Under the pieces are notes generated by a model. It was not told where the DNA came from, did no database searches, and saw only the letters and a program-made list of their open reading frames with translations. Shown one piece after another: positions 15,491 to 42,140 of a stretch of DNA of 64,000 nt (position 1 is the first letter of the stretch; each line of letters begins with the position of its first letter). A program made the translations under genes and the position numbers. Source of the stretch: Flavonifractor sp. An112 (GTDB lineage Bacteria > Bacillota > Clostridia > Oscillospirales > Oscillospiraceae); assembly GCF_002161085.1 (NCBI RefSeq), contig NZ_NFLU01000001.1:248001-312000 (forward strand), written 5' to 3'.

Positions 15491-15982
15491 ATGAAAGAAA
15501 ACGACCCTTTGATCCGCCGGTTTGAAGCCGCCTATTCCGCCCATGGTACTTCGGTTTACCGGCTGGCCATGGTCTATCTGGGCCGCCCGGCGGACGCCGA
15601 GGATGTGACTCAGGAGGTCTTTCTCAAGCTGCTGTACAAGGCCCCCGCCTTTGCCGACGGGGAACACGAAAAGCGCTGGCTGCTGCGGGTGACCGCCAAT
15701 CTGTGCCGGGACCAGCTGAAAACTTTTTGGCGGCGGCAGACAGTGGCCCTGGATGAGAGCTGCCCTGTGCGGTCAGGGCCGGATCGGGCGGTGCTGGAGA
15801 CCATTCTGGCCCTGCCCGAGACCTACAAGGGCCCCATTCACCTCCACTACTACGAGGGCTACTCGGTGGCGGAGGTGGCCGAGATCCTGAAGCTGAGCCA
15901 GTCGGCGGTCAAAATGCGGCTAAAGCGAGGCCGGGAGCTGCTGAAACTGGAACTGGACACCGGATGGGAGGGAAGCGTATGA
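15491..15982 (+). CDS. ECF-type RNA polymerase sigma factor
   Basis: A 163-residue sigma-70 family protein. Region 2 spans about residues 10-75 (AEDVTQEVFLKLL) and region 4 about 105-155 (YEGYSVAEVAEILKLSQSAVKMRLKRGRE). AAAGGAGGC upstream fixes ATG 15491. Its stop overlaps the ATG of the next gene (ATGA), a membrane protein that looks like its anti-sigma factor. The signal is unknown. Confidence 0.92.
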   Translation: MKENDPLIRRFEAAYSAHGTSVYRLAMVYLGRPADAEDVTQEVFLKLLYKAPAFADGEHEKRWLLRVTANLCRDQLKTFWRRQTVALDESCPVRSGPDRAVLETILALPETYKGPIHLHYYEGYSVAEVAEILKLSQSAVKMRLKRGRELLKLELDTGWEGSV

Positions 15983-27392: not shown

Positions 27393-27728
27393 TCAAAGAG
27401 ATTGCCGGGGCCCCGGATCGCCGGAGGGCTCCAGGTCCAGAAGATCCTCCTCCAGAGGCAGCTCCTTCCCCAGTTCCCGCAGGCGGTTTTTGGCTCTGTT
27501 GCGGACAATCGCACTGAGATAGCCCCGCACCCGGCCGGGCACCAGCTTGTGGGCGTTATTCCACAGGGCCAGGAAGGAATCGGACACCACCTCCTCCACA
27601 TCCCTGGGGGCGTCCCGCAGAATGGAGGAGGCCACTCCGCAGGCAAAGGCCATGTCCCGGTCCATCAAAGCCTCCAGAGCGGCAGGGTCACCCCGCTTCA
27701 TCCGCCGGATCAGTTCTCCTTCCTCCAT
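27393..27728 (-). pseudogene. Truncated ECF sigma factor lacking region 4
   Basis: The 111-residue frame starts well (GGAGGTGAG before the ATG at 27728; EEGELIRRMKRGDPAALEAL). It contains sigma region 2 (RDVEEVVSDSFLALWNNAHKL ... RGYLSAIVRNRAKNRLR) but stops right after PSGDPGPRQSL, where region 4 should begin. Without region 4 it cannot recognise a -35 element in the usual way. The next frame downstream is the decapitated anti-sigma-like gene, so the pair appears to have been damaged by one deletion. A short product acting otherwise cannot be excluded. Confidence 0.65.
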
Positions 27729-36367: not shown

Positions 36368-37549
36368 ATGGCAAACCGTCTGTTTACCTCGGAGTCCGTT
36401 ACCGAGGGTCACCCCGACAAAGTGTGCGACCAGATCTCCGACGCTGTCCTGGACGACATCCTGGCCGCCGACCCCACCGCCCATGTGGCCTGTGAGACCT
36501 TCACCACCACCGGCATCGTCACCGTAATGGGCGAGATCACCACCAGCCACTACACCGACATTCCCTCCATTGTCCGCCGCACCGTGCAGCGCATCGGCTA
36601 CACCGATCCCGCCTACGGCTTTGACTATCGCTCCTGCGCCGTTATGACCGCCATTGACGAGCAGTCCCCCGACATCGCCATGGGCGTCAACCAGTCCTTT
36701 GAGCACCAGGAGGGCGGCACCGACGCCGCCGACCTCATCGGCGCCGGTGACCAGGGCATGATGTTCGGCTATGCCTGCGATGAGACCCCCGAGCTGATGC
36801 CCGCCCCCATCTCCATGGCCCACAAGCTGTCCCGCCAGCTCACCGACGTGCGCAAGGCCGGCAAGCTGAAGTGGCTCCGCCCCGACGGCAAGAGCCAGGT
36901 CACCGTGGAGTACGACGACAACGGCAAGGTGCTCTCCTGCCCCGCCATCGTGGTGTCCACCCAGCACGACCCCGATATCGCTCTGAAGGACCTGCGTGAG
37001 GCCGTGGTGGAGGAGATCATCAAGCCCATCATCCCCGCTCAGTACATCACCAAGGACACCAAGTTCTACGTCAACCCCACCGGCCGCTTCGTGGTGGGCG
37101 GCCCTGTGGGCGACACCGGCCTCACCGGCCGTAAGATCATCGTGGACACCTACGGCGGTTCCGCTGCCCACGGCGGCGGCTGCTTCTCCGGCAAGGACCC
37201 CACCAAGGTGGACCGCTCCGCTGCCTACATGGCCCGCTACATCGCCAAGAACCTGGTGGCTGCCGGCCTGTGCCGCAAGTGCCAGATCGAGCTGGCCTAC
37301 GCCATCGGCGTGGCTCACCCCGTCAGCGTGCTGGTGGACACCTACGGCACCGGCGTCCTCTCCGAGGAGAAGCTGTCCGCTATCGTCAACGAGTGCTTTG
37401 ATATGCGTCCGGCCAAGATCATCGAGAAGCTGGACCTGCGCCGTCCCATCTACGAGCAGACTGCCGCTTACGGTCACTTCGGCCGTACCGACATCGATCT
37501 GCCCTGGGAGCACACCGACATGGTGGAGAAGCTGAAGAGCTATCTGTAA
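36368..37549 (+). CDS. metK: S-adenosylmethionine synthetase
   Basis: A 393-residue enzyme making SAM from methionine and ATP. Family signatures are present: [22 protein letters not shown] near the start, the hexapeptide GAGDQG, and the P-loop-like stretch [28 protein letters not shown]-type spacing precedes ATG 36368. It is preceded by an S-box, so SAM controls its expression. Confidence 0.97.
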
Positions 37550-37556
37550 GCTTTCT

Positions 37557-37601
37557 AAAAAGACCTGCCATCCGCATTTTGCGGATGGCAGGTCTTTTTA
37601 T
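37557..37601 (+). terminator. Intrinsic terminator of metK
   Basis: A 19-bp stem (AAAAAGACCTGCCATCCGC and its complement) is followed by T-rich sequence. Confidence 0.92.
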
Positions 37602-37693
37602 TTTTTGCGCTCTGATTTCCAGCACTTGTCCCATTTTCCAGCTTATGAGATAATACATAAATAAAGCTTCTCAGGAAAAGGGGCGATGTGTTC

Positions 37694-40234
37694 ATGGAGC
37701 AGGACCGGAAGCTGCTGGTCCTTCTGGACCGGGATCCGGAGCAGGGCATGGCGGACTTGATCGAAGGGTACAGCGGCCTGCTTTGGTCAGTATGCCGCAC
37801 CTATCTTCAAAGTGCCGAAGATATCAAGGAGTGTGTCAACGAGACCTTCTCGGAATTCTACTTACAGAGGGACCACTTTGATCCCAGCAAGGGCACCCTG
37901 AAAGGATACCTGGCCGTCATCGCCCGGCGGTGTGCCATCCGCCGGTACCAGGAAAATTGCCGTTGGGAGCGTTCCTCCTCACCACCGCCGGAGGAACCAG
38001 CGGACCCCTTCGCACATATAGAACAGCAGGATGAACTGGAGCGGGCCCTGTCGGAGCTGGACCCGGTAGACCAACAGATCATCCACCTGAAATATTACGG
38101 CGGACTGACGGCCCGTGAGATCGCCGCCTCCCTGGGCCTGCCCTATGAGACGGTGAAAAAGCGGCAGCAGCGCAGTCTGAAAAAGCTGCTGCGGGCGCTG
38201 TCCCTGGGTCTGCTGGTGGCCCTCATCCTGGCCGCGCTGGCTGCCTGCGCCTACATGATCCTGCGCCACTTCGGCTTCGTGTCCGGCTACGGCGTTGACT
38301 CCGATCCTCAGGCCGGCACCTACATTCTGGAGCAAAGCGCTGTCATTCAGGGTGAGCTGTACGAGATCCATCTGGAGGACGCCTATTGGCAGAACGGCTC
38401 CTTCCTGGCCGATCTGAGCCTGTACGGCCAAACCAGTCCCTACCTCACGCCTCTGGATATCTCTCTCAGCGGCCTGGATAACCTCCAGCCCATCTCCATC
38501 AGCCAGAACGGGCTGGACGTTCTCGGAGCTTACTCCCTGCGGCTGATCTATGAGGGAGATCTGCCGCAGTCCTCCGCCTCCTCCCTGGAGCTGATTCTGA
38601 CCCTGGATGGTACCGACCTGCCCATCACCCTGGTGGCCGCGGAGGAAACTGCCCTGGAGCAGGCCGGATTCTACTCGGTGACTGAGGCCGACGGCGGCCT
38701 GCTGGCGGTGCCCCGGCTTGAAAATGGGGAGCTGGTGGTCTCCATCCACCCGCTGAACACCGGCCCATTCAAGACCTCTCCCTCCCTGACCAAAGGGATC
38801 TGGAGCGACTACGGAGGACCTCAGTTGCCTATCACCGTTACCGCGCCGGACGGCACCGTACTGGAGGGCGAGCCCGCCTCTTATTCTACCTTCAATGGCG
38901 ATACCTATCTGGACTGGTATTTCGGCCCTGCTGAGCCGGGGGATTATGTGCTCAACGTCCCCTATGTCTATCAATATCCAGCCGCCGGTACAGACTCCCC
39001 CACGGTACAGCTGTCCCTCTCTGCTTCTGACGGAGCACCGGCCTCCCTCTCCCTGCCCGGCGGTACGCTGACTCTGGATCGCCCCTTCTCCATTGACGAC
39101 GTCACCGCCTACTGTAGCACCATTTCCCACTCCTATGACGAGGCTGGCTACACCTGGTGGGCTACGGAGGCCACCTGGGAGGGAGAGGACCCGGAGCGTG
39201 TCCCGGCAGCCATTCCGGTATTGGAGGACGGGGCCGGCACTGTGATACTGAACAATACGACCTACCACAATGTGGAGGCCGGTCTATGGACAGAGCCGGT
39301 CTATGATTCGGACGGGCAATATACCCAGTTCCGAGGCTATGTGGTAGGCACACTGAACGGGCTGGATCAGGCCACCCTCTCTCTGCCTGCGGAAAAACTC
39401 TGTTACCGCTGGAACCACCCCTTCACCATTTCCATGACGGTACAGCCGGAACCGGAGCGGCCTTCCTATACCGGCACATCGGGAAACTACAGCCTTACCG
39501 CCACGCCACGCCGGACCGACGGCGCAGTGGTTCTTAATTTGTCCCCCGCCTCCTCCGACAAATATATGATTCCCACCAGCACGCTGACCCGCAGCCCATT
39601 GACTGCTCTGGGCGCCACGGACGCGCCCATTACCCTGACGGCCGCCGACGGCACCGTATATGAGGGAGAATATCAGCCCGGACGGCAGAACGACGCCAGT
39701 GACTGGAACTTTGGAGACATCCCCGCCGGGGATTACACCCTCCATGTCCCCTACCTCTACCTGACGGCGCCGGAAAGCTGGCATATGGCCATTCCCCTGC
39801 CCCAGCAGCAGGGGCAGGTTCTGCCTGTGGGACCGGTCTATACCTGCTTCTCAGGCCGGATCGAGCTGTCATCCATCACCGGGATAGGGACCGACCCGTC
39901 CATCCTGGAGCAGTTTGCCGCCGCCGTCATCACTTACCCCTCCGGCGGAATCAACCAGCCCCAGGAGGCCCCTCTGGTATCCCGGCTGGACCTCTCCCTC
40001 CACTCCGACATGGAGGACTATACCCTGGTAGATGTGGGTCTTCAGCTCTTTTTGACCGACGAGGCCTACTTTTCCGGCGCCTGCGAGCGACAATATGTCT
40101 TTGAGGAGGGTGAACCCCGGCTGACCAGCCTGCTGCTGCGCCACGCACCCGGCCTCTATGCCACAGACCTTACCTTTACCGATCCTGTCTTACGCTGGAA
40201 CCACCCCTTCGATATCCCCGTCACCATTCCATAG
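37694..40234 (+). CDS. Membrane-tethered ECF sigma factor with large extracytoplasmic domain
   Basis: One 846-residue chain. Region 2 of an ECF sigma factor spans about residues 22-90 (AEDIKECVNETFSEFYLQRDHFDPSKGTLKGYLAVIARR), region 4 about 117-168 (GGLTAREIAASLGLPYETVKKRQQRSLKKL), and one transmembrane helix 168-190. About 650 residues then lie outside. The outer part is internally duplicated: GTVLEGEP...PGDYVLNVPYVY recurs as GTVYEGEY...AGDYTLHVPYLY, and RWNHPFTISMTV recurs as RWNHPFDIPVTI. It looks like sigma and sensor/anti-sigma halves in one protein. Activation would need proteolysis or bending of the tether. The start is ATG 37694 (GTG 37688 is possible). There is no frameshift or stop between the parts. 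Confidence 0.8.
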   Translation: MEQDRKLLVLLDRDPEQGMADLIEGYSGLLWSVCRTYLQSAEDIKECVNETFSEFYLQRDHFDPSKGTLKGYLAVIARRCAIRRYQENCRWERSSSPPPEEPADPFAHIEQQDELERALSELDPVDQQIIHLKYYGGLTAREIAASLGLPYETVKKRQQRSLKKLLRALSLGLLVALILAALAACAYMILRHFGFVSGYGVDSDPQAGTYILEQSAVIQGELYEIHLEDAYWQNGSFLADLSLYGQTSPYLTPLDISLSGLDNLQPISISQNGLDVLGAYSLRLIYEGDLPQSSASSLELILTLDGTDLPITLVAAEETALEQAGFYSVTEADGGLLAVPRLENGELVVSIHPLNTGPFKTSPSLTKGIWSDYGGPQLPITVTAPDGTVLEGEPASYSTFNGDTYLDWYFGPAEPGDYVLNVPYVYQYPAAGTDSPTVQLSLSASDGAPASLSLPGGTLTLDRPFSIDDVTAYCSTISHSYDEAGYTWWATEATWEGEDPERVPAAIPVLEDGAGTVILNNTTYHNVEAGLWTEPVYDSDGQYTQFRGYVVGTLNGLDQATLSLPAEKLCYRWNHPFTISMTVQPEPERPSYTGTSGNYSLTATPRRTDGAVVLNLSPASSDKYMIPTSTLTRSPLTALGATDAPITLTAADGTVYEGEYQPGRQNDASDWNFGDIPAGDYTLHVPYLYLTAPESWHMAIPLPQQQGQVLPVGPVYTCFSGRIELSSITGIGTDPSILEQFAAAVITYPSGGINQPQEAPLVSRLDLSLHSDMEDYTLVDVGLQLFLTDEAYFSGACERQYVFEEGEPRLTSLLLRHAPGLYATDLTFTDPVLRWNHPFDIPVTIP

Positions 40235-40284: not shown

Positions 40285-40354
40285 CCAATCTTTTGTCCAT
40301 CTGTCCCCTTTTTCCCTTTTGCCTGCAATTAGTATGTGGAAGGGAGGGACACAC

Positions 40355-40892: not shown

Positions 40893-42140
40893 ATGAAGCG
40901 CACAACCGGAAAAGTTTTTGCACTGACAGCGCTGAGCAGCCTGCTTCTGCTGGCCTCCGCCTGCGGACAGTCCTCCGGCCAGTCCCCCTCCGGCTCCGCC
41001 AGCGGATCGGAGCCGGCCGGCGGCAACGCCTCCTACACCGACACCTACGATCCCGACGCCCTGTTCCAGTACGGCATGACCCCCGCCAAGGACAGCGAGA
41101 CAGGAAAATACGGCTACAAAAATCTCCAGGGGACATGGGTAATCGAGCCTCAGTATACCTTTGCCCGTGATTTCCAAGTCAACGGTACCGCCTTTGTGCG
41201 CACCGGCAGCAACAGCGACGAGTTCCGCCTCATTGACCGGGAGGGCAACTTTGTCTCGGACTATATCTTCATGCGCTTTTTTGACGAGCTGGCCTTCTCC
41301 GCCAACGGCATCGCCGTGGGGACGGTATGTGAGGCCGACGGCACCAAACTGGGCACCGGCTACTTCTACCTGGAGGACGGGGAGATCGTCTTTGAGCCCC
41401 GGGAGGAAGAGAGCTTCACCGCCTTTTCCGACGACGGTTACGCCGTGGTGGACAACAAGGCCGTCATCAACGATCAGTTTGAGTATGTCATTGAACCCCA
41501 GGAGGACTACTATCTGGTCCAGGTATCCAATGGCATGGTGAGCTTTGATTTCAAGAACACCCCGAAGGGGTACTCTGAGTACGGCTACATGGATGTGGAA
41601 GGCAATATCGTCATCCGGGGCCTGAGCTCCCGGGGCGGTCCCTTCGCCGACAACGGCATCGCGGTGGTGGAAAACCAACTCATCGACAAGAGCGGCAACG
41701 TGGTCTTTGATGTAGCCGACAGCCACTATTCCACCATCACCAGCAACTTCAACAACACCGACTGGGTGGAGGTCTCCTCCCACCTCTCCAGCCGGGGCGG
41801 TACCGACTTCAACTTCATCAACGCCGAAGGCGAGACCTTCTTCCCCACCGACGCCTACGAGCACTCCCACATGGACGGCTCCCTGGCCATCAAGAACGGG
41901 GTCTATGTGGGTCCGGCGCCCGTCCTCAAGGATGATCAGGGCAACATCACCGGCATTGGCGGCACTGAGGACTACGCCACTGTTGCTGTCAATGAGGATA
42001 TGGAGATCCTGTATGTCCCCTACGACAAGGGTATCCAGGATGTGAGCGCCTATTATTCCGACGGCTATGCCAAGGCGGAAACCCAGGATGAACAACGTGT
42101 GATCGTCGATCTGGAAGGCAATATCGTCATGGAATATTGA
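40893..42140 (+). CDS. WG-repeat lipoprotein
   Basis: A 415-residue exported lipoprotein: signal MKRTTGKVFALTALSS..., lipobox SACG (Cys near residue 25), a Ser/Gly linker, then beta-rich repeats of the WG type (KYGYKNLQGTWVIEPQYTFARDF; RLIDREGNFVSDYIF; YGYMDVEGNIVI; VDLEGNIVMEY). WG repeats fold into propeller-like surface domains of unknown ligand. An AAAGGAGATC site precedes it. It is probably co-transcribed with the sigma factor gene and could be part of its signalling or regulon. Confidence 0.82.
   Translation: MKRTTGKVFALTALSSLLLLASACGQSSGQSPSGSASGSEPAGGNASYTDTYDPDALFQYGMTPAKDSETGKYGYKNLQGTWVIEPQYTFARDFQVNGTAFVRTGSNSDEFRLIDREGNFVSDYIFMRFFDELAFSANGIAVGTVCEADGTKLGTGYFYLEDGEIVFEPREEESFTAFSDDGYAVVDNKAVINDQFEYVIEPQEDYYLVQVSNGMVSFDFKNTPKGYSEYGYMDVEGNIVIRGLSSRGGPFADNGIAVVENQLIDKSGNVVFDVADSHYSTITSNFNNTDWVEVSSHLSSRGGTDFNFINAEGETFFPTDAYEHSHMDGSLAIKNGVYVGPAPVLKDDQGNITGIGGTEDYATVAVNEDMEILYVPYDKGIQDVSAYYSDGYAKAETQDEQRVIVDLEGNIVMEY

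Follow-up and report, generated by a model that had tools for sequence, protein, structure and literature searches.

Sigma factors that are fused to membrane extensions are already known. IutY of Pseudomonas putida (ECF243) is activated by a proven two-step proteolysis that involves Prc and RseP; for ECF48, ECF52 (SCO4117) and ECF53 of Actinobacteria the proteolytic removal of a C-terminal membrane extension is predicted, and ECF36 is, also by prediction, a sigma factor with a membrane extension (PMC8999054). SCO4117 has an extracytoplasmic carbohydrate-binding domain (PMC8999054). Regarding separate anti-sigma factors, RsiV, a DUF4179 protein, is cut just outside the membrane by signal peptidase I as site-1 protease, and a helix lying on the membrane is proposed to guard the site until lysozyme binds (PMC6066255), while the site-1 protease of RsiP is the signal peptidase SipP (PMC8844934). 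In addition, lipoprotein signal peptides are processed by Lsp and then by Eep, to judge from the title of Denham 2008 as cited in PMC10202637.

Here, we describe a gene of Flavonifractor sp. An112 that belongs with these systems in its general layout and departs from each of them. It lies in the window, meaning the whole stretch of 64,000 nucleotides that was analysed, and, like all features below whose strand is not given, on the forward strand, at 37694..40234, from an ATG at 37694 to a TAG at 40232-40234; an in-frame GTG is found at 37688, 5' of this ATG. The product (P0001) is 846 aa long, has no internal stop, and is composed of an ECF sigma factor, a transmembrane (TM) helix with a lipobox, and an ectodomain. 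As in IutY, an N-terminal ECF sigma, a membrane segment and an extracytoplasmic part are joined in one polypeptide, but IutY has a fused FecR-like anti-sigma and serves iron cell-surface signalling, whereas in the Clostridia fusion the stretch from region 4 to the membrane helix was found to hold no anti-sigma domain. The membrane extension is C-terminal to the sigma, as in ECF48, ECF52 and ECF53; the extensions of those groups, however, include an anti-sigma domain of the zinc-finger type as well as one or two TM helices, and no lipobox is described for them in PMC8999054. The DUF4179 anti-sigma factors (RsiV, BAS1627) can be compared with the fusion on account of a distant fold match of its ectodomain and of the helix-guarded site-1 cut of RsiV, but they are separate proteins, have a cytoplasmic part that binds the sigma, and carry a site for signal peptidase I, whereas here the anchor is attached to the sigma directly and a lipobox is the candidate site. 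The Clostridia family is distinct by its lack of a detectable anti-sigma domain, its lipobox, its free-paralogue circuit and its hosts.

In searches with Pfam and NCBIfam, PF04542, PF08281 and TIGR02937 were all over cut-off in the fusion, and these comprise only sigma regions 2 and 4, both intact. Region 2 (Sigma70_r2, E 1.3e-11) covers residues 22-86 (37757..37951), and region 4 (Sigma70_r4_2, E 9.1e-12) residues 113-165 (38030..38188); both are strongly conserved among the homologues, and the closest solved structures of this part are ECF sigmas. One hydrophobic helix, residues about 168-191, comes directly after region 4. Residues 166-846 gave no match to an anti-sigma family, or to anything else over curated cut-offs, in Pfam and NCBIfam, and neither Pfam nor the continuous predicted helix 151-191 leaves a zinc-finger anti-sigma domain between region 4 and the TM.

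The rest of the protein, residues 192-846 (38267..40231), is an ectodomain, which is all-beta in an AlphaFold2 model of residues 192-590 (pLDDT 91.7). It includes two repeats, copy 1 at residues 327-426 (38672..38971) and copy 2 at residues 591-689 (39464..39760), which are 37.6% identical (E 6e-17); the second is missing from shorter fusions such as P0006 and P0007. These results bear out the first-pass annotation, which had described an intact ECF sigma with regions 2 and 4 that runs without a stop into a transmembrane helix and about 650 extracytoplasmic residues with two repeated modules. The sensor role that it gave to the ectodomain draws on its position and on a weak structural similarity to the ectodomain of an anti-sigma factor: in a Foldseek search of the PDB, 3FBQ alone was a significant match (E 2.1e-4, probability 1.00), and a distant one (TM-score 0.19/0.25). 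According to PMC6066255, this structure shows the extracellular part of BAS1627, a DUF4179 anti-sigma factor of Bacillus anthracis. A sequence profile of the ectodomain had no match in the PDB, no Pfam or NCBIfam family was over cut-off, and the DUF4179 signature was found neither in P0001 nor in 49 ectodomains; the separate protein P0011, a relative, has a weak DUF4179 match.

The family is widely distributed. A search of 99 related genomes recovered homologues in one single frame within the genus (84%, 49% and 49% identity), along with a shorter version in another genus, and a scan of the GTDB representative collection gave 75 loci, of which nearly all encode a fusion (roughly 580-890 aa); the ectodomain, searched alone, was found in 6 of 400 genomes of the family. 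In all, about 75 homologous fusions come from Oscillospiraceae, Lachnospiraceae and relatives, and their hosts include Flavonifractor, Neglectibacter, Gemmiger, Ruthenibacterium, Pseudoflavonifractor, Lachnoclostridium, Dorea, Faecalicatena, Mordavella, Sporofaciens and further relatives. The statistics given below refer to an alignment of 77 rows, in which one genome is present twice (P0007 and L087). Four loci (L078, L079, L083, L091) each have two sigma fusions in tandem. Long open sigma frames that a genome search offered as further fusions were rejected, as they were mostly read-through upstream frames.

That an artefact of assembly or a frameshift had joined two genes is almost certainly wrong: apart from the textbook rarity of such an arrangement nothing is in its favour, and the single frame is present in independent genomes, including the isolates Neglectibacter timonensis, Gemmiger An120, Flavonifractor An82 and Pseudoflavonifractor phocaeensis. 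The first-pass annotation had named two separate genes in relatives, with a frameshift here, as the case to look for, and what was found is one intact frame in relatives of 84% and of 47-63% identity as well as in more distant ones. The fusion of sigma, anchor and ectodomain in one polypeptide is genuine and conserved.

Regarding the anchor, an AlphaFold2 model built on a 59-sequence alignment (ma20b8ca5bc13, mean pLDDT 85.9) predicts a single continuous helix for residues 151-191 (38144..38266), in which the recognition helix of region 4 runs into the membrane helix (about 168-191). Pfam limits and this helix agree that only a few residues, and no linker, separate region 4 from the hydrophobic segment. 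If the recognition helix continues into the membrane helix as predicted, the tethered form should be inactive; on this model the tethered sigma would be unable to engage both the -35 DNA and the polymerase, so that tethering itself would be the inhibition.

Near the outer end of the membrane helix there is a lipobox, L182-A-A-C185 (38237..38248), and this is a candidate site for signal peptidase II. No other position from the end of region 4 to the start of the ectodomain is as conserved as Cys185, which is present in 75 of the 77 rows and in 54 of 55 representatives below 70% identity; position -3 is L in 71 rows, position -1 is A or G in 73, the strict box [LVI][ASTVI][GAS]C is found in 70, and a PROSITE-type core in 72. 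The distance from the last K/R to the Cys is 17-18 residues in 66 of the 77, compared with 14-18 (mode 17) in the ordinary lipoproteins of the same loci (n=23). As a control, membrane proteins encoded beside related sigma genes were inspected, and a lipobox at that spacing occurred in 1 of 36. The one is the product of a separate anti-sigma-like gene beside a related sigma (L135, G625), with the lipobox VTAC, and for this reason the trait may extend beyond the fusions. P0009, an unrelated sigma-TM fusion of the same genome, has a TM without a Cys. Besides P0001, this genome encodes two sigma-TM fusions of a different family. One has 700 aa (G000:C38, L031:4004-6106, minus strand), and the other, truncated at a contig end, has at least 353 aa (G000:C3, L032:2975-4033); their TM comes about 80 residues or more after region 4, with an Ala-rich linker, and the 700-aa protein has no lipobox.

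The lipobox is not universal in the fusions, as two rows lack the Cys, with Arg in Flavonifractor An82 and Ser in L108, and five more break the strict pattern, three with V or F at -1 and two with F or A at -3; in those five the Cys can evidently persist without a good lipobox. A close relative of the An82 protein, the ortholog in Flavonifractor AGMB03687 (G018, L003/L050), has an in-frame TAG late in the ectodomain, and this stop together with the lost Cys in An82 makes decay of the system in this sublineage possible. Compared with a bacterial prolipoprotein, the fusion has likewise a positively charged stretch, a hydrophobic segment of the same length, the lipobox and a small residue after the Cys, but it differs in the 168-residue sigma before the hydrophobic segment and in what comes after the Cys. 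Five uncharged, mostly hydrophobic residues follow it in 64 of the 77 rows; in the reference fusion these are AYMIL, then R, and they are helical in the AlphaFold2 model. The flexible polar segment that ordinary lipoproteins have right after the Cys is absent here, so Cys185 may simply sit within a transmembrane helix. Column conservation outlines a segment after the Cys, C-[AGT]-Y-x-V-L-R-[HY]-F-G-x-x-P-G-Y-G (residues 186-200, 38249..38293), which by analogy with RsiV could guard the cleavage site. As lipoproteins are usually processed constitutively, such a guard has to be assumed.

The gene is set apart from metK, which ends at 37549, by an intrinsic terminator (37556..37600) with a 20-pair stem and a T run, and it is preceded by an ECF-type promoter, TGTCCC-N17-NNAAT, at 37627..37654, which overlaps a 9/12 match to the housekeeping consensus (TTGTCC-17-GATAAT). 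The same promoter is found at 40302..40329, before a free, unanchored ECF sigma paralogue (P0002; 40355..40861; TTG start; 168 aa) that has regions 2 and 4 and no TM, and is 47-48% identical to the sigma part of the fusion. In the genome of 2,957,674 bases, TGTCCCNNTTN15AAT has exactly two matches, at the fusion and free sigma genes, while the reversed control has one; the strict pattern therefore yields only the two sigma genes as targets. In most of 13 other fusion-carrying genomes, the matches include sites before the fused or the free sigma gene. Moreover, TGTCCC occurs within 160 nt upstream of 17 of 24 free paralogues against 0.8 expected from mononucleotide shuffles, in 14 cases at exactly 17 nt from NNAAT, and upstream of 13 of 71 fusion genes against 1.5 expected from such shuffles, in nine cases at 17 nt. 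Two loci (L065, L067) have a perfect sigma-A promoter, TTGACA-17-TATAAT, at the fusion gene and TGTCCC only at the free sigma. Such a split would fit an order of events in which the anchored sigma is produced first and the free sigma when needed, and suggests that the anchored sigma is made from a housekeeping promoter or by self-activation and, once freed, turns on the free copy.

The free sigma gene is followed after 31 bp by a WG-repeat lipoprotein gene (40893..42140; PF14903, E 1.8e-15; N-terminal lipobox LASAC), which is probably co-transcribed with it as its output. The genes downstream vary among loci, from SLH-domain proteins (L059, L064) and other large secreted proteins (L102) to lipoproteins (L087 and the present locus), and their products are often exported, in keeping with an envelope role. 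The free paralogue adjoins the fusion in many loci, and most Lachnospiraceae loci have none within the examined flanks. In many Lachnospiraceae, the gene just 3' of the fusion encodes a conserved, cytoplasmic-looking protein of 309-318 aa with the motif RPEL (L070, L071, L076, L090, L096, L098, L101, L105, L107, L116), which is a probable functional partner of the fusion; the two examined, from L098 and L070, have no Pfam match over cut-off. Elsewhere in the window, there are two further ECF sigma genes, at about 15533-15733 (+) and 27468-27650 (-), among 31 sigma region 2 matches in the genome. Between 57000 and 62000, the G+C content falls to about 41% (58-62 kb), compared with about 60% elsewhere, and this segment is possibly acquired. 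As for the first-pass annotation, its reading of one polypeptide stands and is extended by conservation, while the lipobox, the free sigma paralogue, the common promoter, and the fact that sigma-membrane fusions exist elsewhere (IutY; ECF36, 48, 52, 53) had escaped it.

How these parts might work together can be proposed as follows. The ECF sigma, for which no anti-sigma domain was detected, would be kept inactive by the continuity of its recognition helix with the membrane helix. An extracytoplasmic event, sensed by the beta ectodomain on the presumed outer side, would expose the lipobox near the outer helix end; lipid modification by Lgt and then cleavage at the lipobox by signal peptidase II would make the site-1 cut, and a site-2 protease would cut the remaining helix and free the sigma. 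The freed sigma would then transcribe from TGTCCC-N17-NNAAT, that is, its own gene and the free sigma paralogue with its lipoprotein gene, and the response would be amplified. Over curated cut-offs, the genome has single lspA and lgt genes and one or more genes for M50 site-2 proteases; as such genes are near-universal, they allow the proteolysis model and lend it little support. Taken as a one-protein device that signals from envelope to genes, with a tethered sigma freed via lipobox and site-2 cleavage to activate its own gene and the free sigma, the proposal has in our view about an even chance of being right. The more specific statement, in which the sigma is the N-terminal passenger of a prolipoprotein whose maturation by Lgt and signal peptidase II is a gated first cut, so that the sensor stays outside as a lipoprotein while the sigma becomes active inside and turns on the free copy, we hold tentatively, as a little less than an even bet.

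Regulated proteolysis could also begin with signal peptidase I, or another site-1 protease, before the site-2 protease acts, and the Cys would then have some other function, such as redox sensing, the packing of helices or the formation of a dimer through a disulfide. RsiV and RsiP are known to be cut at site 1 by signal peptidase I, the residues A-C-A also fit an AxA site, and the Cys is kept in the five rows with an imperfect lipobox; what this reading leaves unexplained is the Leu at -3 and the lipoprotein-like spacing of 17-18 residues, and we regard it as unlikely, though worth serious attention. The first-pass annotation had offered two fates for a tethered sigma, action at the membrane or release by proteolysis, and release is the better supported, because the recognition helix runs into the membrane and the conserved lipobox is a candidate cleavage site. 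A sigma that is never cleaved and recruits RNA polymerase at the membrane, like the one-component regulators ToxR and CadC, is accordingly improbable: regulation of the ToxR type is established elsewhere, and a single TM and an intact sigma domain are strictly all that the sequence holds, but ToxR and CadC possess linkers, and a region 4 helix that is predicted to be continuous with the membrane helix has none with which to dock on both the -35 DNA and the polymerase.

It is more improbable still that the sigma domain of the fusion acts chiefly on the adjacent free paralogue, as its decoy or regulator, and has no sigma activity of its own. The adjacency of the two genes in many loci and their common promoter motif would fit such a role, but regions 2 and 4 are well over cut-off and strongly conserved, and most Lachnospiraceae loci have the fusion without a free paralogue in the examined flanks.

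The origin of the family can be approached through its nearest unfused sigma relatives (L006, L128-L139). These are two-gene ECF/anti-sigma systems of the same order, in which a stand-alone sigma gene is followed, usually with an overlap of a few nt (often -4, -8 or -13), by a gene for a membrane protein, as is usual for sigma and anti-sigma genes. In place of a direct fusion to the sigma, this membrane protein has roughly 40-85 cytoplasmic residues ahead of its TM and ectodomain. Given this layout in the more distant sigma relatives, a two-gene system probably became a single protein, with loss of the cytoplasmic anti-sigma domain. In a tree of 118 sigma domains (quick IQ-TREE, SH-aLRT support only), the fused forms and their free neighbours are one group (99), apart from all two-gene relatives, and the fused and free labels need five changes. 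The fusion is therefore probably the outcome of one event, or of a few, at the base of this group, and the free paralogues probably go back to about three or four duplications in which the extension was lost or left out; the tree itself is blind to gain versus loss.

A search of the literature, which covered few of the subscription papers, found nothing on the fused-sigma family of Clostridia or on signal peptidase II as a sigma-releasing protease. For annotators, the "sigma factor" genes of 600-850 codons in such genomes are real and not misassemblies. If the proposed mechanism is true, signal peptidase II, a housekeeping maturation enzyme, would become a regulated transcription switch, and the story of signal peptidase I with RsiV and RsiP would be extended to a system that dispenses with the anti-sigma factor. 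The minimal parts are one protein, two promoters and one free paralogue, and can be tested in a laboratory host. The family that carries them is widespread in gut Clostridia, in which envelope sensing is poorly known.
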